From NCBI GenBank assembly GCA_023395695.1, contig JAEWYJ010000013.1:1-8369 (forward strand): 8,369 bases of DNA. The letters are read 5' to 3'. The notes under the pieces are model-generated. The model worked only from the letters and a program-made list of their open reading frames with translations, did not search any database and was not told where the DNA came from. The stretch's first letter is position 1, and each line of letters begins with the position of its first letter. Below, one piece after another: positions 1 through 8,369 of the stretch. Both the position numbers and the translations under genes were made by a program. The DNA comes from Bacillota bacterium. Lineage in GTDB: Bacteria; Bacillota; Clostridia; Oscillospirales; Ruminococcaceae.

Positions 1-41
1 CGCAGGGTATCGTAATGTTATCTTATGACCGTAAGCTGTAA

Positions 42-395
42 TTATTCTTCTTCAATAAAATCGTAATCCTCGCCAAGCCGCTCTATGAACATGGCGGAAA
101 TTCTGTTAAATTCCGCTTCATCCTCAATGGCCTCAAGGAACTCCTCAACGCCCTGCGCGACAACCTTGAGAACCACCAGCTCGCCCGGGTCGGACAGCAG
201 CTCATCAGGGTCTTCGATGACCGGAATCAGAGCCAGATACTGGACGCCGTCTTCCTCCAGCATATCGGCCACTTCAAACTCATGCTCAACGCCGTCCTCG
301 TCCACGAGGGTAATAATGCCTTCGCCCGAATCGCAGCCGCAGCCGCAAGCGGAATCTTCTTCATGGTCGTGACCACAGTTGCAATGCTCGCTCAT
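42..395 (-). CDS. DUF1292 family protein (YrzB-like) with Cys/His-rich N-terminus
   Basis: This is a 117-residue, very acidic soluble protein. Residues about 25-95 match the DUF1292 pattern: a strand reading IITLVDEDGVEHEFEV, then a YLALIPV strand, an acidic loop, a VVLKVV strand and an IEDEAEFNRI helix. DUF1292 proteins are widespread in Firmicutes (YrzB in Bacillus, beside yrrK/ruvX and yrzL/ireB) and have no settled biochemical function. Unusually, residues 1-24 are rich in Cys and His (HCNCGHDH, then CGCGC), which looks like a metal-binding leader. The ATG at 393-395 is preceded by GAGAGGAGT about 10 nt upstream, and a sigma-A-like promoter lies at 428-456, so the gene seems to be transcribed alone or as the first gene of a unit running off the left edge. 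There are no membrane segments or signal peptide. The family call is by pattern recognition; the metal-binding role is inference. Confidence 0.8.
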   Translation of the reverse strand: MSEHCNCGHDHEEDSACGCGCDSGEGIITLVDEDGVEHEFEVADMLEEDGVQYLALIPVIEDPDELLSDPGELVVLKVVAQGVEEFLEAIEDEAEFNRISAMFIERLGEDYDFIEEE

Positions 396-427
396 AATCT
401 ATTTTACTCCTCTCATTTTCTAGGTAT

Positions 428-456
428 AGTTTACGCCATACGCAAACGAAAGTCAA
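428..456 (-). promoter_or_regulatory. Sigma-A promoter of the DUF1292 gene
   Basis: Read on the minus strand, a -35 TTGACT (451-456) and a -10 TAAACT (428-433) are separated by exactly 17 bp. Transcription would start near 421 and give a leader of about 26 nt before the ATG at 395, with the ribosome binding site inside it. The -35 is 5/6 and the -10 is 4/6 against consensus. Position and spacing fit the only downstream minus-strand gene. Confidence 0.55.
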
Positions 457-510
457 GAGAAACGCCTTTTGGGCATTTTATGCAAAAATAAATTATTTTG
501 TTGAAAACAG

Positions 511-539
511 TTGACTTATTTGATTGATTATGTTATATT
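511..539 (+). promoter_or_regulatory. Strong sigma-A promoter of an orphan transcript
   Basis: TTGACT (511-516), a 17-bp spacer and TATATT (534-539) make a near-consensus sigma-A promoter (5/6 in each box) in a very AT-rich context. The start site would be near 546. No convincing protein-coding gene follows on the plus strand, but a hairpin plus short T run lies at 810-851, so the promoter appears to drive a short RNA of about 300 nt. Confidence 0.6.
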
Positions 540-596
540 AAAAATACAAAAAAGGTCAAACGTATTAAGCATCAAAAATGAAAGGGGGCGATTCCA

Positions 597-647
597 GTGT
601 GCAGCGAAGAACCGTTTCATCTTATTCGGGCGGTTGCTGTCGGCTAA
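597..647 (+). CDS. Possible 16-residue peptide ORF in the orphan transcript
   Basis: A GTG at 597 lies 8 nt after a purine-rich AAAGGGGG (581-588) that could act as a Shine-Dalgarno sequence. The frame encodes MCSEEPFHLIRAVAVG and then TAA. It lies inside the candidate RNA and covers most of its predicted stem-loop, so it could be a leader peptide or a chance ORF. A longer frame from the ATG at 578 (62 codons) lacks a well-placed ribosome binding site and has a random-looking composition. I do not recognise either sequence. Confidence 0.15.
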   Translation: MCSEEPFHLIRAVAVG

Positions 648-809
648 AAACAGGGTCTGTAAGAACGGTTATCTGCTTTAGAACTCTTCTTTATTCCAAC
701 AATCTATTTGTCATAGCTATAAATCCGACGGCATTGCCTGATATTTCCGCAAATTTATATAGATGAAGAGAGATGACATTAAAAACCAATGCTGAATAAT
801 CCAATACCT

Positions 810-851
810 TAAGCGCCGTTTTCCACGAGGGAAAACGGCGCTTAGTGTTTT
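810..851 (+). terminator. Intrinsic terminator closing the orphan transcript
   Basis: A perfect 15-bp stem (810-824 with 830-844) encloses a 5-nt loop and is followed by GTGTTTTAT. The T run (848-851) is short but lies on the plus-strand side only. On the minus strand the hairpin is followed by AGGTATTGG, so termination of nrdG transcripts here would be weak. nrdG ends 127 nt away, and I see no better terminator for it in between. Confidence 0.5.
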
Positions 852-971
852 ATAGCCGATCGACTTGAAAAGCAGCGCGCCATTGGGGCGTATTTCCGCT
901 TGGCCAAGCAGACGGTACAAGCAATAAAATACCGGCCATCCCGCAGCATCAAGCAAGCTGCAGCCTTGGCG
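852..971. other. Intergenic spacer downstream of nrdG
   Basis: These 120 bases separate the hairpin from the nrdG stop codon. Minus-strand frames read through them, but they have no ribosome binding site and no recognisable protein family. I see no promoter, RNA gene or strong terminator. The minus strand contains a small GCAGC/GCTGC stem-loop without a directly following T run. Confidence 0.4.
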
Positions 972-1496
972 TTATAAAGCGGAAAGCACCGGTTTGCCGG
1001 TTGCGAGCGACTGCCTGGGATCCAACAGCCGCTGGTTTCGGCTGCCCCGAAAACGCAGCGACAGGTCACGTTCCGCCAGCAAAAAGCGGCCGTCCACCAG
1101 TAACTCGCAAAGCGAGAGCAGCTCGGTAACAGCCGGGTCACTCTTGCTCTTTTCCAAAAGCTCCTCAAAGGTATAGCCCGAAAAAACAACCACATCCTTG
1201 CCGCGCCGGCGCACCGCCTGCGCTAAGGGCAGCAGGCGGGCGGCCTGCTCAAACGGCTCGCCGCCCGAAAGGGTAACCCCGCGCAATAGCGGGTCGGCGT
1301 CAAAGGCGTCGAGAATCTTTTGCAGCGCACAATCATAACCGCCCGACGGGCTGTGCGTATCGGGGTTGTGGCAACCCGGACAGCGGTGCGGGCAGCCCTG
1401 CACAAACACGGTCAGACGTATGCCCGGCCCGTCAACAATAGACTCGCGGACAATGCCCGCGAGTCTGATGCTGCCGGTTAGTTCCGGTGCGCTCAC
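972..1496 (-). CDS. nrdG: Anaerobic ribonucleotide reductase activating protein, radical SAM enzyme
   Basis: This 174-residue protein is the usual size for NrdG. The radical-SAM cluster motif is Cys35-x3-Cys39-x2-Cys42 (CPHRCPGC), which binds the [4Fe-4S] cluster that cleaves S-adenosylmethionine. SIVDGPGIR (19-27) precedes it, and VTLSGGEP (74-81) is the SAM-binding GGE motif. The C-terminal LVDGRF, then FRGSRNQRLLD, is typical of NrdG rather than the longer PflA. NrdG installs the glycyl radical on class III ribonucleotide reductase in the cytoplasm. Here the target glycine appears to lie on the separate small protein just upstream, not on NrdD. The start is GTG at 1494-1496. It overlaps the stop of the small gene (GTGA) and has GGAG 5 nt upstream, so translation is probably coupled. 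It is the last gene of the nrdD operon. Confidence 0.93.
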   Translation of the reverse strand: MSAPELTGSIRLAGIVRESIVDGPGIRLTVFVQGCPHRCPGCHNPDTHSPSGGYDCALQKILDAFDADPLLRGVTLSGGEPFEQAARLLPLAQAVRRRGKDVVVFSGYTFEELLEKSKSDPAVTELLSLCELLVDGRFLLAERDLSLRFRGSRNQRLLDPRQSLATGKPVLSAL

Positions 1497-1669
1497 AGGC
1501 GCTCCAGCCCATCCGAAAGGCCATGCTTGACCCGGTCGTTGACCTCTGCATGCTTGGCATTGTTAAAGCGGTCGAGCGTGCCGACCAGATAGCCCGTAAT
1601 TCTGCGGATGCGTTCAAAGCCAACGCCCGCGCCCACCATTTCGACTGCTGTTGTATTGTTATTTTTCAT
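1493..1669 (-). CDS. Separate glycyl-radical subunit of class III ribonucleotide reductase
   Basis: This 58-residue protein contains the glycyl-radical signature normally found at the C-terminus of NrdD. Residues 18-30 run FERIRRITGYLVG, and the motif R-I-T-G26-Y-L-V closely fits the consensus [STIV]-x-R-[IVT]-[CSA]-G-Y-x-[GACV], with Thr before the glycine. After it comes RFNNAKHAEVNDRVKH (34-49), matching the conserved tail of NrdD proteins. Gly26 is 32 residues from the end; in E. coli NrdD the radical Gly681 is 31 from the end. I chose ATG 1667-1669 because AAGGAGGAG lies 6 nt upstream. An earlier in-frame ATG at 1688-1690 would place this ribosome binding site inside the gene. The gene overlaps the end of nrdD by 11 nt in a different frame, and nrdG overlaps its end. 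The inferred role is to carry the stable glycyl radical for NrdD and to be the substrate of NrdG. Similarity is firm; function as a separate subunit is inference. Confidence 0.85.
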   Translation of the reverse strand: MKNNNTTAVEMVGAGVGFERIRRITGYLVGTLDRFNNAKHAEVNDRVKHGLSDGLERL

Positions 1670-4001
1670 TTTCTTCTCCTCCTTGATCAATCATGCTGTT
1701 TGGAACGCGGTCGGCCTCCTCGGCAATATCGCCGCAGCAGCCGAGCGTAGTTGAATTCAAATGCTTATATACACCCAGTTTTTTGAGCTTTTCCACAGGG
1801 ATAGCCTCGCCCTCATGCCGCCCGCAGCGGGGGCATGCCTCGTCGATAATGCCGGTATAGCCGCAGACAGGGTCCCGGTCAACCGGATGGTTGATGGAGC
1901 CATAACCAACGCCGCATTCCTTCATATAACGCACTACCGCCTCAAAAGCATCCAGATTTTTGACCGGATCCCCGTCAAGCTCAATGTAAGAAATATGCCC
2001 TGCATTGGTCAGCGCGTGATAGGGCGCCTCAAGCCGGATTTTATCGTAGGCCGAAATCGGGAAGCTGACCGGAATATGAAACGAATTGGTGTAGTATTCT
2101 TTATCAGTAACGCCGGGCATGACGCCGTACTGCTTTTTATCGAGCCGTACAAAGCGGCCCGAAAGGCCCTCGGCCGGGGTGGCAATCAGCGTGTAGTTCA
2201 TGCCGGTTCGCCGGCTCTCCTCGTCGACCCGCTTTCTCATGCAGCCGATAATCTCAAGCCCCAGATTCTGCGACGCCTGCGATTCACCGTGGTGCTTGCC
2301 GGTCAGCGCCGTCAGGCACTCGGCTAATCCGATAAAGCCGACGGTAAGGGTGCCATGCTTGAGTACCTCGCCCACCGTGTCCTCGGCGCCAAGCTTGTCG
2401 GAATCCATCCAAATGCCCTGCCCCATCAAAAACGGGTAATTTTTCACCTTTTTGCCTGCCTGAATGTGGAAGCGGTCGGTCAGCTGACCGATAACCAGCT
2501 CCAGCTCCCGCTCAAGCTGGTCAAAGAAAAAGTCCAGATTGTGGTTGGCCTTAATCGCCAGCCGCGGCAGGTTGACGGAGGTAAAGCTCAAATTGCCCCT
2601 GCCGGTGACAATTTCGCGCGTGGGATCATACACATTGCCGACAACGCGGGTTCGGCAGCCCATGTAGGCGACCTCGGTTTCTGGGTGGCCGGCCTTGTAG
2701 TATTTAAGATTAAAGGGGGCATCAATGAACGAAAAATTCGGGAAAAGCCGCTCGGCCGAGACCTTGCAGGCCAGCTTAAACAGGTCGTAGTTCGGGTCGC
2801 CGGGATTAAAATTGACGCCTTCCTTAACTTTAAAAATGTGAATAGGGAAAATTGCCGTCTCGCCGTTGCCCAGACCCGCCTCGGTCGCCAACAGCAGATT
2901 GCGGGTGACAATACGGCCCTCGGGCGAGATATCGGTGCCGTAATTGAGCGACGAAAACGGAATCTGCGCACCCGCGCGGGAATGCATGGTGTTCAGGTTA
3001 TGTACCAATGCTTCCATCGCCTGATAAGTGCTGCGGTCTATTTCCTGGTCGGCAAACCGGCGGGCAAATTTATAAGCTCTGGCATAAACCTCTTTGCCCA
3101 GCACCGGCTCCAGCAGCTTTTTTTCCGCCTCGGCATAGCCGTTGTTGGCATCCAGCGCCGGCCACAGGCCGGTTGCCTCCTCCACCTTGGCAATGGTCTC
3201 GCGCACCAGCTTGTCTGCGCCGGCAAATTCGGCCATCTCAAGCGCCTTTATTAAATTGTTGCGGTACAATGTGCGGTAGCTCTTTGCCACACCTTTCGAC
3301 ATGTCAAAATCGAAATTAGGGACGCCCTGACCGCCGTGCTGATCATTTTGATTCGACTGAATTGCAATGCACGCCAGCGCGGAATAGCTTTGAATGGAAT
3401 TTGGCTCACGCAAAAAACCGTGCCCGGTCGAAAATCCGCTATCAAACAATTTGGTTAAGTCAATCTGGCAGCAGGTGGTGGTCAGCGCGAGAAAATCGAG
3501 GTCGTGAATGTGAATATCCCCCGCCATATGCGCCTTGGAGTGCTCAGGCTTTAAGATAAACATTTCGTAAAACTGCTTGGCGCCCTCTGAGCCGTATTTA
3601 AGCATGGTGCCCATAGCGGTATCGCCGTCTATGTTAGCGTTCTCACGCTTAATGTCGTTTTCCTTGGCCTCACGGAAGGTCAGCCCCTCATATATTTTCA
3701 TCAGGCGGGTGTTCATCTCACGTACCCGGGTACGCGCCGAGCGGTAGAGGATGAATTCCTTTGCGGTGCGCGCGTGGCCATCTTCGATAAGCACATGCTC
3801 AACGGCATCCTGAATTTCTTCGACAGTAGGCGTCTGGTTCCCCTTGGCATCCAGATAAGCCACCACTCGGTCGGCAAGCTTCTCCGCGGTCTCGTGATCG
3901 TTGCCGCCAAGCGCCTGCGCTGCCTTATAGATTGCCTGCGTAATCTTATCGAGTTCAAATGGAACCATGCGGCCATCCCGCTTGATAATAGACGTAATCA
4001 T
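1659..4001 (-). CDS. nrdD: Anaerobic (class III) ribonucleoside-triphosphate reductase, catalytic subunit lacking its own glycyl-radical segment
   Basis: This 780-residue cytoplasmic enzyme reduces ribonucleotides to deoxyribonucleotides without oxygen. Residues 1 to about 95 form an ATP-cone (IIKRDGRMVPFELDKITQAI), the allosteric dATP/ATP switch. The barrel follows, with GDIHIHDLDF, a Cys177-Cys178 pair in TTTCCQIDL (a likely site of the active-site cysteine facing the thiyl radical), and MGC449RTRV, where Cys449 matches the thiyl-radical cysteine. Near the C-terminus NHPVDRDPVC713GYTG and C723PRC726 resemble the NrdD zinc site. Where other NrdDs continue into the RVxGY radical motif, this one has a different 50-residue tail containing Cys755-Cys756, and then stops. 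The start at 3999-4001 is chosen because GGAGGAG lies 7 nt upstream and the ATP-cone begins at once; an in-frame start at 4067 falls within the promoter -35. It is the first gene of the nrdD - small glycyl-radical gene - nrdG operon, with NrdR boxes upstream. Confidence 0.95.
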   Translation of the reverse strand: MITSIIKRDGRMVPFELDKITQAIYKAAQALGGNDHETAEKLADRVVAYLDAKGNQTPTVEEIQDAVEHVLIEDGHARTAKEFILYRSARTRVREMNTRLMKIYEGLTFREAKENDIKRENANIDGDTAMGTMLKYGSEGAKQFYEMFILKPEHSKAHMAGDIHIHDLDFLALTTTCCQIDLTKLFDSGFSTGHGFLREPNSIQSYSALACIAIQSNQNDQHGGQGVPNFDFDMSKGVAKSYRTLYRNNLIKALEMAEFAGADKLVRETIAKVEEATGLWPALDANNGYAEAEKKLLEPVLGKEVYARAYKFARRFADQEIDRSTYQAMEALVHNLNTMHSRAGAQIPFSSLNYGTDISPEGRIVTRNLLLATEAGLGNGETAIFPIHIFKVKEGVNFNPGDPNYDLFKLACKVSAERLFPNFSFIDAPFNLKYYKAGHPETEVAYMGCRTRVVGNVYDPTREIVTGRGNLSFTSVNLPRLAIKANHNLDFFFDQLERELELVIGQLTDRFHIQAGKKVKNYPFLMGQGIWMDSDKLGAEDTVGEVLKHGTLTVGFIGLAECLTALTGKHHGESQASQNLGLEIIGCMRKRVDEESRRTGMNYTLIATPAEGLSGRFVRLDKKQYGVMPGVTDKEYYTNSFHIPVSFPISAYDKIRLEAPYHALTNAGHISYIELDGDPVKNLDAFEAVVRYMKECGVGYGSINHPVDRDPVCGYTGIIDEACPRCGRHEGEAIPVEKLKKLGVYKHLNSTTLGCCGDIAEEADRVPNSMIDQGGEENEK

Positions 4002-4011
4002 TGGAGCTCCT

Positions 4012-4027
4012 CCACAATATATTGTAT
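4012..4027. promoter_or_regulatory. NrdR box 2 (leader of nrdD)
   Basis: A 16-bp site centred on the perfect palindrome ACAATATATTGT (4014-4025) fits 14 of 16 positions of the NrdR-box consensus acaCwAtATaTwGtgt. It lies just downstream of the predicted start site, next to the ribosome binding site. NrdR is the zinc-finger/ATP-cone repressor of ribonucleotide reductase genes in most bacteria. Its boxes come in pairs spaced by about three helical turns, as here (33 bp centre to centre). Confidence 0.8.
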
Positions 4028-4038
4028 TTGACCATTTG

Positions 4039-4067
4039 ATTCTACCACTATATAGAGTGTGTGTCAA
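4039..4067 (-). promoter_or_regulatory. Promoter of the nrdD operon
   Basis: Read on the minus strand, a perfect -35 TTGACA (4062-4067), a 17-bp spacer and a -10 TAGAAT (4039-4044) form a near-consensus sigma-A promoter. The start site would be near 4032, giving a leader of about 30 nt before the ATG at 4001. One NrdR box fills the spacer, so repressor binding would block RNA polymerase directly. The -35 overlaps a 10-bp palindrome GTCAATTGAC (4063-4072). Confidence 0.8.
4045..4060. promoter_or_regulatory. NrdR box 1 (inside the nrdD promoter spacer)
   Basis: CCACTATATAGAGTGT fits 14 of 16 positions of the NrdR-box consensus. It occupies the spacer between the -35 and -10 elements and is separated from box 2 by 17 bp. 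Two good boxes in this arrangement make NrdR control of the operon very likely, although nrdR itself is not in the window. Confidence 0.78.
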
Positions 4068-4171
4068 TTGACTAAGTGTTTTTTGTTATCAAAAGCTTCG
4101 TTAATATTTTTGTGCCATTTGCCTTTTTATTTAGAACAATTCACTATTTGAGACACCGTTTTTTTCCATAT

Positions 4172-5383
4172 TTAATGTGAAGTCTTGTTTCTTGGGCCGT
4201 GCGCTTTACCCGCCGCTCCAAACAGCAGCCCGCCCGCCAGAAGACTTAAAAGCGAACAGAGCAGCCACATGGGGTCATAAGCACCGGTGCGGTCAAACCA
4301 CAAGCCGGCCAACGGTACGCCGCCGGCCGCGCCAGCCGACGCCGCAAAGGTCAGCCGTGCAGAAATACGGGCATAATCTTTGCGCCCGAACAGCCCGGCC
4401 GCAAATACATTGCCGGGAATGGCATTGGCACACGCGCAGCCTGCCAGCAGAACCGAATATAAAAAGCCGATTTGCCGGCATTGCGCCAGCACCAGCGCTG
4501 TAGCCGAACCGGCCAGCAAAACCGTGCCCAACAGCAGCGCCCCGGCTTTGAGTCCGAATTTATCCAGCGCCGCGCCGTAAGCGGGCTTGGAAACCGACAT
4601 CAGCAACGTGGCGACCGAGGAGACCATGGCTGCTGACATCGCGCCAAAGCCGATATCGGTCAGGTAGGGTATGGCATGGTTATACAGCGAAAGATTAACA
4701 AAATTTGCACAAAACAGCCCTGCAAACAGCAGCCAGAAGCAGACGGTTTTCATTGCATCGGCGCAGTCTGTTCCGCCCGCCGCCGTCTCTGTTTCACAGC
4801 CGGGCGTACCGCCGCCGCCGCGCACCAGCAAAAGAACAGTCGGCAAAAGCACGGCAAGGCCGACTGCGCTTTGAAGTCGATAGCCCCAACGCCAACCGTA
4901 GCGCTCAATAGTCAGTTGCAGCAACGGAATCATCAAGGACGAAAAAACACCCACCCCCGCAAACGACGCACCCATTGCCACGCCTCTGCTGTTACGCAAA
5001 TTCCGCTCTATTAAAACCCCAACGGTCAGCATGGTAAGACCGTTTATTCCCAGCCCGTTAACAAAGGCACACAAATAAAATTGCCACAGCTTATTACAAA
5101 AGGAGTAAGCCAGCGGCACCGACCCGCAAAGCAGGGAACAAAGGAGTAAAATTCGCCTGATCGGCACCGTTTGCAGCCACCGGCCAAACAGCAGCAGCAC
5201 CGTCATTGACGACAGAATTGACAGGGTGCCTGTCAGTGTAAAGCCGCCGCGGGAAAATCCGAGCGCATGGCAGACGGGTGTTACAAAAACGCCCATACAA
5301 TTGCTGAAAACGCCAATACCGGCCCCGGTAATCAAAGCGCCGGTCATAATAATTTTTCGTTGCGCTTTTTGTTCATTGTTCAT
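4172..5383 (-). CDS. Major facilitator superfamily (MFS) transporter, substrate unknown
   Basis: This 403-residue, strongly hydrophobic protein is the usual MFS size, and its hydrophobic pattern is compatible with 12 transmembrane helices in two halves. Loop 2-3 has a degenerate motif-A sequence GRWLQTVPIRR (67-77), and the equivalent loop in the second half has YGAALDKFGLKAG around Asp274. The central cytoplasmic loop (about 190-215) is short and rich in Gly/Thr. Overall style (ITGAGIGVFSNCMGVFVTPVC, then GFSRGGFTLTGT) resembles the monocarboxylate/oxalate-formate branch, but the substrate cannot be read from the sequence. The ATG at 5381-5383 has GGGGGT 8 nt upstream. An in-frame TTG at 5434 lacks a ribosome binding site and adds a non-conserved leader. 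The gene is divergent from the metal-sensor operon and shares its 128-bp intergenic region. No clear terminator separates it from the nrdD promoter, 105 bp downstream. Confidence 0.85.
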   Translation of the reverse strand: MNNEQKAQRKIIMTGALITGAGIGVFSNCMGVFVTPVCHALGFSRGGFTLTGTLSILSSMTVLLLFGRWLQTVPIRRILLLCSLLCGSVPLAYSFCNKLWQFYLCAFVNGLGINGLTMLTVGVLIERNLRNSRGVAMGASFAGVGVFSSLMIPLLQLTIERYGWRWGYRLQSAVGLAVLLPTVLLLVRGGGGTPGCETETAAGGTDCADAMKTVCFWLLFAGLFCANFVNLSLYNHAIPYLTDIGFGAMSAAMVSSVATLLMSVSKPAYGAALDKFGLKAGALLLGTVLLAGSATALVLAQCRQIGFLYSVLLAGCACANAIPGNVFAAGLFGRKDYARISARLTFAASAGAAGGVPLAGLWFDRTGAYDPMWLLCSLLSLLAGGLLFGAAGKAHGPRNKTSH

Positions 5384-5443
5384 GTGCTGCACCCCCAAAG
5401 AATAGTCTGCCCGCAGCAGCAAAATTTTTTCCAAGGAAAAACC

Positions 5444-5477
5444 AACATATGCTTGACTGTTTATATGTTCATATGTT
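5444..5477. promoter_or_regulatory. Candidate operator for the ArsR-family metal sensor
   Basis: AACATATG (5444-5451) and CATATGTT (5470-5477) form an 8-bp inverted repeat across the -35 region. Within the promoter spacer a shorter inverted repeat, ATATG-TT-CATAT (5463-5474), overlaps a tandem TATATGTT/CATATGTT (5462-5477). SmtB/CzrA-type repressors bind AT-rich imperfect 12-2-12 palindromes containing TGAACA; the minus strand here contains TATGAACATAT. The fit to the full consensus is partial, so the exact boundaries are uncertain. Confidence 0.5.
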
Positions 5478-5482
5478 AATAT
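5453..5482 (+). promoter_or_regulatory. Promoter of the metal sensor / exporter operon
   Basis: TTGACT (5453-5458) and TAATAT (5477-5482), 18 bp apart, give a reasonable sigma-A promoter with a start near 5489. The repeats proposed as an operator lie across its -35 and spacer, as expected for a repressor-controlled promoter. Confidence 0.55.
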
Positions 5483-5511
5483 TTAAATGCAATTACAAGC
5501 GAGGTGAAACT

Positions 5512-5835
5512 ATGGCATGTAACGCTTCTCACGATTTAACCGCCGCCATACCGACCGAGCGCGAACTCGATCTGCTAACCCAAATTTTTTCAATCTTTGC
5601 CGATTCAACCCGCATACGCATTATTTGTGCACTGCAGGACAACGAACTGAGTGTCAATGAGATATGCGCCGCGCTGGAGATGAGCCAGCCCGCCATTTCG
5701 CACCAGCTGCGCTTTCTTAAAAACGCCCGTGTTGTAAAGTGCCGCCGTGCAGGGCGCAGCAGCTTTTATTCTCTGGACGACTCGCATGTCTCTTTAATTT
5801 TAAAAATGGGCTTAGAACACGTAAGGGAGATTTGA
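5512..5835 (+). CDS. ArsR/SmtB-family metal-sensing repressor (Zn-type alpha-5 site)
   Basis: This 107-residue winged-helix repressor has the ArsR DNA-reading helix at about 56-70 (MSQPAISHQLRFLKNA) and the wing RRAGRSSFYSL (78-88). The last helix has D90-x-H92-x10-H103-xx-E106, the exact ligand pattern of the SmtB/CzrA alpha-5 site. That predicts sensing of Zn(II), and perhaps Co(II) or Cd(II). The alpha-3N site seems degraded: the N-terminus keeps Cys3-x3-His7, as in SmtB, but the alpha-3 helix reads ELSVNEI, with Ser where SmtB/CadC have Cys. Metal binding should release DNA and derepress the operon. ATG 5512 is preceded by GAGGTGA; an upstream in-frame ATG at 5449 lies before the promoter -35 and is rejected. 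The exporter gene starts 5 nt after the stop, so the pair is one operon. The family is secure; the inducing metal is inferred. Confidence 0.93.
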   Translation: MACNASHDLTAAIPTERELDLLTQIFSIFADSTRIRIICALQDNELSVNEICAALEMSQPAISHQLRFLKNARVVKCRRAGRSSFYSLDDSHVSLILKMGLEHVREI

Positions 5836-5840
5836 TATTT

Positions 5841-8006
5841 ATGGACCATTCGCATCACGAAGGGCACTGCCACAACCACAAATGCGCCTGCCACACACCG
5901 GCTAAGGCCACCGCTCAGACCCACGACTCCTCCGAGGGCGATTGCTGCGGACACGAGCACCCGCCGGGAGACGACCCGGAGGAACCGGCCCAACGGCCCG
6001 CACCCGTCGGCGAGGCCGTACCGCATACCTGCAACGCACACGACCATGAGCATAACCACAGTCATGACCATAACCATGAGCATAATCACAGCCACGAAAG
6101 CTGCCCGGCTTCCGGTTGCTGCGGCGATGACTGCGGCTGCGGCCACAGCCATGACGAAGCGCTTACGGCACCCTTTTCGCGTCCGCTGACCATTGTGGGC
6201 GCCGTGCTTGTCGCCGCCTCCCTGCTGCCGGCATGGGGCACACTTGCCCCCTGGATTTTAGGCGCCGGTACGCTGCTGATCGGCTATCCGCTTTTTGTAT
6301 CGGGCCTGAACGCCATGTTCCGGTCCTTTGCGCTTGACGAATTAAGTCTGATGACCATTGCGGTCATTGCCTCCTTTGGTCTGGCGGTTGCCTCCTCCGA
6401 CCCGATGGAAAGCCTGTTTGAGGCTTTTGCCGTGACGGCGCTGTTTCGTATTGGAAACTATCTGGAGGCACGCGCCATTGCCAAGAGCCAGCGCGATATT
6501 GAAGCGCTGACCAATATCCGGCCCGATACTGCCCTGCTGCTCACGCCCGACGGAAAGACACGTCAGGTCGCCGCCGAGCAGGTACCGGTCGGCAGCATGA
6601 TTGAGCTTCGGGCGGGAGACCGTATCCCAATCGACTGCGAGGTCGTCTCAGGCGCCGGCTATGTCGATCTTTCGGCCATTACCGGCGAACCGATTCCGAT
6701 TCAGGGCAGCGTGGGCACGCGGCTTCCCTCCGGCGCAATTAATCTGGACGGTCTGTTAACCTGCCGCACCACCGCGTCCTTTGCCGACTCCGCCGCTTCG
6801 CGCATTATTCGGATGGTACGTGAAGCCGCCGACAAAAAAGGGGACGCCGAAAAGCTAATCTCGCGCTTTGCGAGAATTTATACACCCATTGTCGTCGTGC
6901 TGGCCGTACTGCTGGCTGTTGTGCCGCCGCTGCTGGGCTTTGGCGCTTTTGGCATGTGGCTTTCGCGCGCGCTGGTATTCCTTGTCGCCTCCTGCCCCTG
7001 CGCACTGGTCATTTCGGTACCGCTGACCTTCTTTGCGGGCATTGGCACCGCCTCCCGCTCAGGCATTCTGGTCAAGGGCTCGCGCTACCTTGAAACGTTG
7101 GCCAAAACCGACTGCATTGCATTTGATAAGACCGGTACGCTGACGCAGGGCATTCCTACCGTTGAGAGCATGAAGCTGACCGACGGCTTTGACCGCGCAA
7201 CGCTGCTCGCTTTCGCCGCAGCGGCCGAACAGCGTTCCAACCATCCGGCAGCCAAAGCCGTGATGGCGTACGCCGGCGAACAGCCCGCTTTATCGGTGTC
7301 GGACTTTACCGAGCACAGCGGTATGGGCGTTTCTCTGACCTGCGAGGGCAAGCGCATTTTGTGCGGATCGTTTCGCCTGATGGCGCAAAATGGTGTCGAT
7401 TATACCCCGCTGGAGCCTGCCAATATCTATCTGGCGGTGGATAACCGGTTGGCCTGTGCATTTACGTTGACCGACCTCCCCCGACCCGAAGCAGCTCAGG
7501 CGCTGGCGATGCTGCGCGATCTGGGAATTACCGATTTTGCTATGCTGACGGGTGACGCCCAGCGCGCTTCCGAAAAAATTGCCGCACCGCTTGGCATCTC
7601 CACCGTATTCGCTCAGCTGTTGCCCGAACAGAAGCCCGAACGTCTCGCCGATTTGCGCGCCACCCATCACACAACCTTATTTGTGGGCGACGGCATCAAC
7701 GATGCACCGGTTTTGGCCGGAGCAGACGTTGGTATCGCAATGGGTCTGGGCACTGATACCGCCATTGAGGCCGCCGATGTTGTACTGGTCAACGAGCAGC
7801 TCACCGCCATTCCCCGCGCAATCAAGATCGCGCGCCGGACGGTGACCAAGGCGAATCAGAATATTGCATTTGCGTTGATAGTCAAAATTTCAGTGCTGTT
7901 GCTTGGCGCATTAGGCTTTGCTACCATGTGGATGGCTGTTTTTGCCGACGTCGGCGTAACCATTCTGGCCGTACTCAACGCTTTGACGCTGCTCTCGAAA
8001 AAATAA
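5841..8006 (+). CDS. P1B-2-type heavy-metal exporting ATPase (Zn/Cd/Pb), His-rich N-terminus
   Basis: This 721-residue membrane pump uses ATP to export divalent soft metals. The first 105 residues hold about 23 His and 11 Cys, with alternating HxH stretches at 67-85, and there is no GMTCxxC ferredoxin-like HMA domain. The actuator domain has TGE (281-283). The transmembrane metal site is Cys385-Pro-Cys387 in SCPCALVISVP. The phosphorylated Asp429 is in DKTGTLT, the nucleotide-binding His468-Pro469 in SNHPAAKA, and the hinge motif is GDGIND (616-621). Lys682 in helix 7 and Asp703 in ADVGVTILAVLNALTLL are the P1B-2 signatures seen in ZntA. ATG 5841 is 5 nt after the sensor stop, with AGGGAGA about 11 nt upstream; in-frame starts inside the sensor gene are rejected. 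The ArsR neighbour and the motifs together indicate Zn/Cd efflux (ZntA/CadA class). Which of these metals is the physiological substrate is not visible. Confidence 0.95.
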   Translation: MDHSHHEGHCHNHKCACHTPAKATAQTHDSSEGDCCGHEHPPGDDPEEPAQRPAPVGEAVPHTCNAHDHEHNHSHDHNHEHNHSHESCPASGCCGDDCGCGHSHDEALTAPFSRPLTIVGAVLVAASLLPAWGTLAPWILGAGTLLIGYPLFVSGLNAMFRSFALDELSLMTIAVIASFGLAVASSDPMESLFEAFAVTALFRIGNYLEARAIAKSQRDIEALTNIRPDTALLLTPDGKTRQVAAEQVPVGSMIELRAGDRIPIDCEVVSGAGYVDLSAITGEPIPIQGSVGTRLPSGAINLDGLLTCRTTASFADSAASRIIRMVREAADKKGDAEKLISRFARIYTPIVVVLAVLLAVVPPLLGFGAFGMWLSRALVFLVASCPCALVISVPLTFFAGIGTASRSGILVKGSRYLETLAKTDCIAFDKTGTLTQGIPTVESMKLTDGFDRATLLAFAAAAEQRSNHPAAKAVMAYAGEQPALSVSDFTEHSGMGVSLTCEGKRILCGSFRLMAQNGVDYTPLEPANIYLAVDNRLACAFTLTDLPRPEAAQALAMLRDLGITDFAMLTGDAQRASEKIAAPLGISTVFAQLLPEQKPERLADLRATHHTTLFVGDGINDAPVLAGADVGIAMGLGTDTAIEAADVVLVNEQLTAIPRAIKIARRTVTKANQNIAFALIVKISVLLLGALGFATMWMAVFADVGVTILAVLNALTLLSKK
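6045..6095 (+). repeat. Short in-frame tandem duplication in the His-rich leader
   Basis: Two copies of a 21-nt unit encoding HEHNHSH (6045-6065 and 6075-6095) lie 30 nt apart and differ at two third-codon positions. They create the alternating His run of the ATPase. Such repeats expand and contract easily, so length variation between strains would be expected. Confidence 0.6.
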
Positions 8007-8014
8007 GCGTCCTT

Positions 8015-8045
8015 ATAAGCCGACCCGGTAAACAATCCGGCTTAT
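8015..8045 (+). other. Hairpin just after the exporter gene
   Basis: ATAAGCCG (8015-8022) pairs with CGGCTTAT (8038-8045) around a 15-nt loop, 9 nt after the stop codon. No T run follows, so it is not a terminator by itself. It could protect the mRNA 3' end or act together with the next hairpin. Confidence 0.4.
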
Positions 8046-8067
8046 TGCACCGCCCCTAAACCGACTA

Positions 8068-8125
8068 CGCGTCCCTTAGAAAAACACGGCGCCGCTAAGC
8101 CGTCTTTCTAAGGGGCGCGTTTTTT
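8068..8125 (+). terminator. Strong intrinsic terminator of the sensor/exporter operon
   Basis: A 15-bp stem (8068-8082 with 8105-8119, one G-T wobble) encloses a 22-nt apical region that can form an inner CGGC/GCCG stem. A run of six T residues follows (8120-8125). The orientation fits the plus-strand exporter operon, whose last codon ends 61 nt upstream. Confidence 0.85.
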
Positions 8126-8369
8126 GCAAATTTACAAAGCCACCCCGGGCTAAACCGGAAGAACACGCTAATCGGGAAGGATGCCAAAGTGGCAAGCGGT
8201 TTTGCGCCAACCAAGGAAAGTTTGTAATATCCATAATATTTTCAACATATTGTATAAAAACCCAAGCAGGCTTAAAAAACTGCTTTTTGGCTGACAAGCC
8301 GGAGGACGCAGGGACGCCGCAACCCTTTGAGCACGGCAACACAGCCACACCCGGAATAATCCCCTAAGA
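8126..8369. other. Intergenic region at the right edge, no convincing gene
   Basis: Two overlapping minus-strand frames run through this stretch (8076-8348 and 8168-8350). They lack ribosome binding sites, match no family I know, and one extends into the terminator. An AT-rich patch (8222-8260) could hold a promoter but no good -35/-10 pair is evident. I found no tRNA and no riboswitch core. Confidence 0.4.
8254..8285 (-). terminator. Possible minus-strand terminator from a gene beyond the right edge
   Basis: Read on the minus strand, AAGCAG (8280-8285) pairs with CTGCTT (8264-8269) around a 10-nt loop, and the stem is followed by GGGTTTTTAT. The stem is only 6 bp, so the call is weak. It would serve a convergent minus-strand gene, none of which is visible. 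Confidence 0.25.

Follow-up and report, generated by a model that had tools for sequence, protein, structure and literature searches.

Small free-standing proteins with a glycyl-radical loop are known for pyruvate formate-lyase (PFL), where GrcA/YfiD of E. coli and Y06I (vs.6) of phage T4 replace the lost end of the enzyme. The available part of PMC8683613 states that only two PFL spare parts have been validated and that others are possible, and the available part of PMC12338860 describes the pairing of PflB G734A with GrcA. Among class III ribonucleotide reductases (RNRs), the NrdD proteins of P. copri (8p23) and phage T4 have a radical cysteine in a finger loop, a zinc region, a glycine loop and an NrdG activase, and the chain itself ends in the glycine loop. 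In the P. copri enzyme the radical glycine adjoins the radical cysteine, as described in the accessible text of PMC11226230.

An RNR encoded by two adjacent genes and divided towards its C-terminal end is known as NrdJa/NrdJb in Pseudomonas aeruginosa, where both chains are needed for full activity. This enzyme is class II and B12-dependent, and its small chain serves disulfide exchange rather than carrying a radical. In 2015 NrdJ was called the only split RNR found outside viruses (PMC4520616, in the portion available). The coding sequence of some phage nrdD genes also lies in pieces, due to introns, inteins and endonucleases and in one phage unexplained, and the available portion of PMC3653736 describes no free-standing glycine-loop protein among them. 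The open-licence literature matches listed, in their titles, abstract beginnings and available text, hold no description of a glycine-loop protein separate from a cellular NrdD; the same is true of the available parts of PMC9669993, PMC9531940, PMC4390871, PMC3322345, PMC1524935, PMC12288474, PMC2795772 and PMC11194802.

The locus analysed here lies in a stretch of 8,369 nucleotides (hereafter the window; contig JAEWYJ010000013.1, positions 1 to 8,369, assembly GCA_023395695.1) from a member of the Ruminococcaceae. Its NrdD belongs to the same core family as those of P. copri and phage T4, but the glycyl-radical loop, usually the C-terminus of a class III enzyme, is encoded by a separate open reading frame. 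The features of the window are the following.

42-395, minus strand: DUF1292 protein, 117 aa, by family match
972..1496, minus strand: nrdG, predicted radical SAM activase for the glycyl radical (TIGR02491 NrdG)
1493..1669, minus strand: stand-alone glycyl-radical domain, 58 aa, covering NRDD profile positions 533-562, with Gly26 in RRITGY as the predicted radical site
1659..4001, minus strand: nrdD core, 780 codons, with ATP-cone, catalytic barrel with radical Cys449, and putative zinc-site cysteines C713/C723/C726
4012..4027, minus strand: NrdR-box-like palindrome proximal to nrdD, ATACAATATATTGTGG, score 20/22
4045..4060, minus strand: second NrdR-box-like palindrome, ACACTCTATATAGTGG, score 19/22
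4172-5383, minus strand: MFS transporter upstream of nrdD, below the cut-off for the bile-salt and lactate MFS families
5512-5835, plus strand: ArsR/SmtB-family regulator, an ordinary metal-efflux pair with the next gene
5841-8006, plus strand: heavy-metal P-type ATPase with a His/Cys-rich N-terminus, behind the ArsR/SmtB-family gene

The order nrdD, 58-codon gene, nrdG runs along the minus strand with each gene overlapping the next. The small gene shares 11 nt with the end of nrdD in a different frame, and its own end shares 4 nt with the GTG start of nrdG. It begins with ATG, and AAGGAGG lies 8 nt 5' of this codon, within the end of nrdD. The sequence-only reading had placed a gene for RRITGY and Gly26 between nrdD and nrdG, behind a good ribosome-binding site, and the open reading frame at 1493-1669 bears this out. 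The nrdG product scores 136.2 bits against TIGR02491 (NCBIfam cut-off 126.1), which indicates that NrdG is encoded alongside NrdD.

The large chain matches the Pfam family NRDD (PF13597) with 621.1 bits over profile positions 1-531 of 562, the ATP-cone family PF03477 with 85.5 bits and NCBIfam NF005497 with 1091.7 bits, against a cut-off of 764. The small protein supplies positions 533-562 of the same profile (E 1.1e-7, 31.4 bits, cut-off 26.2), so that the two chains complement each other to a whole NrdD, in agreement with the earlier claim that NrdD lacks the radical motif and the next gene encodes it. No Pfam family besides PF13597 reached its own cut-off with the small protein in a search up to E 1, and PF01228 (Gly_radical, PFL-type) was not among the matches; the family is thus of the NrdD type, unlike GrcA/YfiD. 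Residues 18-49 of the small protein, which consists of this glycyl-radical loop region and little else, align to chain positions 707-738 of P. copri NrdD. In the alignment Gly26 corresponds to Gly711 and Cys449 of the large chain to Cys416, the radical pair of that enzyme. Cys449 lies in an MGCR finger loop and is invariant in 22 alignment rows. The break falls 3' of the putative zinc-site residues C713, C723 and C726, so the missing part is only the glycine loop and tail; the fourth cysteine of P. copri aligns with Asp710. An AlphaFold2 model of NrdD alone gave an NrdD core with a mean pLDDT of 79.5, and a fold search with this model returned P. copri NrdD as the best PDB matches (E 1.2e-46). 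By family and fold the protein is therefore class III and not class II B12-dependent. The chain ends in an extension of about 50 residues; residues 745-780, beyond the zinc site, have mostly pLDDT below 50, and at this low confidence the modelled extension offers no docking surface.

The sequence evidence strongly supports a split class III reductase with the radical domain as a protein of its own. Our main reading, to which we give a probability of roughly 0.8, is that the three overlapping genes encode one class III reductase in which the 58-residue glycine-loop protein docks on NrdD, receives its radical from NrdG and passes it to Cys449. The small protein would fill the place of the missing C-terminal loop on the NrdD core, NrdG is predicted to make the glycyl radical on Gly26, and transfer from Gly26 to Cys449 would start nucleotide reduction. 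A radical on a small separate chain would alter what oxygen destroys. In contrast to the fused enzymes, it also becomes possible to label, swap and titrate such a chain independently of the catalytic core. A split NrdD contradicts the statement, in the available part of PMC4520616, that NrdJ is the sole split reductase outside viruses.

The sequence-only reading had called for a survey of related genomes for the same split. A scan of 84,980 species genomes gave at least 559 matching stretches, of which the best 80 were kept, a sample that leans to the window. In these 80 loci the arrangement of a truncated nrdD with an adjoining small gene was found 54 times, 10 loci were fused (one of these continuous nrdD genes is cut by the contig end) and 16 had a free radical domain with no nrdD within the fetched stretch. 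According to their record titles, the split loci come from Bacillota, Fibrobacterota, Thermodesulfobacteriota (Desulfovibrio) and Campylobacterota; one split locus (L039) is that of Massiliimalia timonensis, and a further one (L095) comes from a genome record titled Anaerobiospirillum. Split NrdDs carry an extension after the zinc site and fused NrdDs do not. Homologues of the small protein made up 7,989 of the 7,999 scored proteins of similar length at E <=1e-3, among the matches listed. The 32-codon core of the small gene is under constraint, with pN/pS of 0.08-0.21 against 12 relatives, a rough ratio given the near-saturation of synonymous sites.

A second form of the free domain was found in 10 of the 16 free loci, in which about 50 extra residues with invariant positions precede the loop (hereafter the N-domain form). 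This part was modelled as beta-alpha-beta-beta, and E. coli YfiD likewise has an N-terminal region before its loop. An NrdD with its own loop is also present in 8 of these 10 genomes, in G005 broken over two contigs. When the genomes of nine fused loci were searched regardless of this, six also held a free domain. Over all samples we counted 24 genomes with a loop-bearing NrdD and a free domain, and the free one always had the extra N-terminal part; its gene lies directly behind the complete nrdD in G110, G245, G330, G351 and G366. Reading the open reading frame starts beside the remote free-domain genes, we recognised no oxygen-defence genes.

We also drew 391 genomes evenly from the class to which G003 belongs (presumably Clostridia), of which 95 had a listed NrdD match of at least about 774 bits; G018, where no radical domain was found, was dropped, leaving 94. 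The counts are sample proportions among listed matches, with two candidates scored per genome, and do not give prevalence. Fused domains only were found in 71 genomes, so the split is not needed by anaerobes at large. Fused and free domains occurred together in 11 genomes, a truncated NrdD with a type-1 domain in nine (in G350 on another contig), a truncated NrdD with an N-domain protein elsewhere in two, and an odd break in one (G312).

The fused-only class includes three irregular cases, of which G355 is cut short. In G100 (L113, G100:C144) the frame is continuous, and CPLCGRR of the zinc site is separated from PFERIRR by 107 residues, compared with 7 in the fused loci L048 and L067. G195 has a normal NrdD copy (L124) and an odd second fused one (L123, G195:C1:2008400-2011100) that reads RRTTGDLSG for RRITGYLVG, with the glycine kept and the flanks different. 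In G312 (L150, L151) NrdD appears to be broken upstream of the zinc site, and the zinc site and glycine loop lie on a 95-aa frame near the contig end; an inserted element or an assembly break may be the cause.

In four unfinished genomes (G008, G015, G266 and G281) NrdD stops a few residues before the position of the glycine, as in ...HERIQRLKA or ...HFERIPRL. Beyond this point all frames of the fetched DNA show only chance words and no true loop, and the sole NrdD-type radical domain found in each genome, a free N-domain protein, lies on a different contig. The nrdD of G015 (L089/L101) is also in two frames at its 5' end, with the ATP-cone apart from the core, which is either real damage or an assembly error.

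Free domains of the NrdD type are found in viral contigs as well, as Y06I is in phage T4. Two scans, keeping the best 80 of 386 and the best 80 of 357 relatives, gave 159 distinct loci, of which 144 contain a free-standing frame, 15 contain no frame by the pattern used and none contains a fused one. The distinct frames comprise 61 of the N-domain type, 59 of type 1 and two without a start. An nrdD lies within six of the fetched loci, and 46 of 50 viral records searched whole, which may be fragments, have no match to the window NrdD. Neighbouring genes in L255, L308, L171, L258 and L306 have matches in phage families, among them those of tail, RNA polymerase and virion proteins, and only 14 of 50,697 phage records match. 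In the phage contigs L258 and L306 a truncated nrdD is succeeded by an N-domain protein and then by nrdG, which in L306 comes after a further stretch of about 500 nt, and this gene order links the N-domain form with NrdD and NrdG (L301 does not differ in the loop protein). The orphan viral copies suggest that phages may sustain the host enzyme with a gene for about 60-100 residues instead of a whole reductase. In Eggerthella phage EL753P1 (L314, OP172808) an annotated nrdD is followed downstream by an NrdD-type glycine loop in two pieces across a 'hypothetical protein'.

The regulatory sites were scored against a consensus that we take to be that of the NrdR box. In the window, the score of 20/22 of the box proximal to nrdD was reached by 0 of 200 shuffles. 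The two boxes are 33 nt apart from start to start with a 17-bp spacer, which fits a predicted NrdR pair at an integer number of helix turns. The available text of PMC12051234 states that NrdR needs a pair of boxes and gives bindable spacers of 14-17 and 24-27 bp.

For the other loci, an NrdR-box-like site was called within 250 nt upstream at p <=0.05 against 200 dinucleotide shuffles for each gene. Sites were present upstream of 28 of 32 nrdD genes (of 33 selected, one had insufficient upstream sequence), 18 of 24 N-domain genes remote from nrdD (six had none) and two of 59 other genes from 22 of these loci. The difference between N-domain and other genes is significant (Fisher 2.8e-11, or 3.8e-8 with seven near-identical loci counted once). 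None of 13 remote type-1 copies had an upstream site. Pairs of boxes, the second often weak, were significant (p <=0.02) in 17 of the 24 N-domain genes, spaced start to start by 31-33 nt in ten, 41 nt in two, 24 nt in four and 43 nt in one. Spacings of 31-33 and 41 nt fit the spacers reported as bindable in the available part of PMC12051234, and those of 24 and 43 nt do not. From these upstream sequences, the N-domain genes away from nrdD appear to be controlled like nrdD itself.

By analogy with GrcA/YfiD and PFL, the split may also serve repair. Cleavage by oxygen at Gly26 would then affect the 58-residue chain and spare the 780-residue core, and a fresh, cheaply remade small chain would restore activity. 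GrcA works beside an enzyme that keeps its own loop, whereas the small protein of the window partners an NrdD that has none. The pattern of a complete enzyme plus a free domain is absent from the nearest relatives G407, G413 and G416 and belongs to the N-domain form in the 24 genomes given above; in such genomes and in viral contigs this form would likely serve the rescue of complete NrdDs whose tip has been lost. For the window, a replaceable part is supported indirectly by the loop-bearing NrdDs with an extra free domain and by the truncated NrdDs whose sole domain lies elsewhere. These relatives hold candidate NrdD spare parts, judged by their sequences, for a second glycyl radical enzyme, and offer concrete cases for the question in the available part of PMC8683613 of spare parts beyond PFL. 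In its widest form, for which we see the odds as even, class III reductase would have an exchangeable radical cartridge, present in anaerobes from several phyla either as a core with a free loop or as a complete enzyme with an NrdR-controlled spare for rescue after damage by oxygen; some lineages would have lost the built-in loop and depend on the spare, and phages would carry the cartridge alone to sustain the host reductase while they infect.

The most serious alternative is neutral gene fission, in which the small protein stays bound for good as a subunit, with neither exchange nor any benefit for repair. At least 12 changes between fused and split forms on the NrdD tree fit such easy back-and-forth, and 20 of the 22 split genomes searched hold exactly one NrdD-type radical domain, as would a mere subunit. 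Against this, a bound subunit has no obvious use in the 24 genomes that keep a free domain beside a loop-bearing NrdD, nor in the 46 viral records with a free domain and no nrdD match. We consider neutral fission a real possibility, somewhat below even odds.

It is improbable that the NrdD of the window is a secondary copy, with a complete NrdD elsewhere in the genome for which the small protein is only a spare part. The 24 genomes with both a loop-bearing NrdD and a free domain lend this some plausibility, but their free protein has the extra N-terminal part and that of the window does not. A second complete nrdD, together with a small gene not conserved in relatives, had been named by the sequence-only reading as a finding that would speak against the split; no second nrdD exists in the three nearest relatives on the tree (G407, G413 and G416), whose sole NrdD is the truncated one. 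A fused domain was not found in 21 of the 22 split genomes searched. In the exception, G430, which has one free and one fused domain, the fused NrdD (L318, G430:C3:36300-40500, 808 codons) has the loop RRITSYLAG, with serine replacing the radical glycine, a trait shared with the aminoacyl radical enzymes described in PMC11528403 (available part). G410 has two free domains.

Several genomes have a second NrdD of another kind. Distant copies with frames of 701-751 codons and 27-38% identity were found in G408, G419, G422 and G436. A paralogue lacking both zinc site and loop is present in G427 (L315, 726 codons, 51% identity), with like paralogues in G350 (L316, 760 codons) and G223 (L317, 757 codons), both at about 51% identity. 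These three end in ...GPREIYQSAAGQAL-like tails, and a profile search gave one radical domain per genome; they lie outside what the split-enzyme account explains. Multiple domains were also seen in the Mogibacterium-like G009, with five free type-1 domains (L092, L115-L118), of which one adjoins nrdD and the other four lie elsewhere and lack NrdR boxes, and there were three matches each in G298, G006 and G007.

Programmed ribosomal frameshifting, which would join both frames into one NrdD chain, was considered because the 11-nt gene overlap of the window lies close to an A-rich stretch and an internal ribosome-binding site. Across 62 split loci, that of the window among them, the start of the small gene lies between -11 and 175 nt from the nrdD stop: 33 starts lie at 0-50 nt, 28 beyond 50 nt and only that of the window overlaps nrdD. 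All three relative frames occur (29/17/16), the small gene begins at a start codon of its own, and a ribosome-binding site of at least 4 nt precedes it in 61 of the 62 loci, a generous count because the candidate start with the best site was taken. In G008, G015, G266 and G281 the domain is even on another contig. Frames, gaps and separate contigs refute frameshifting for the family and make it very improbable for the window. Because the relative frame is not conserved and the genes lie on different contigs in other genomes, the chains of the split reductase would assemble after translation.

That a sequencing or assembly error, or decay into a pseudogene, broke an ordinary nrdD is scarcely conceivable: the overlap of the genes alone speaks for it, and the relatives, in which the sequence-only reading had allowed for one continuous open reading frame, show the same break in most of the best 80 loci, with low pN/pS in the small gene and an extension after the zinc site specific to split NrdDs. 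Some of these small proteins carry the automatic annotation 'anaerobic ribonucleoside-triphosphate reductase'. One 81-aa relative (P0024) has a zinc-like CPNCGR between two copies of FERIRRI, as if a portion of the zinc region of NrdD had been joined to a free loop.
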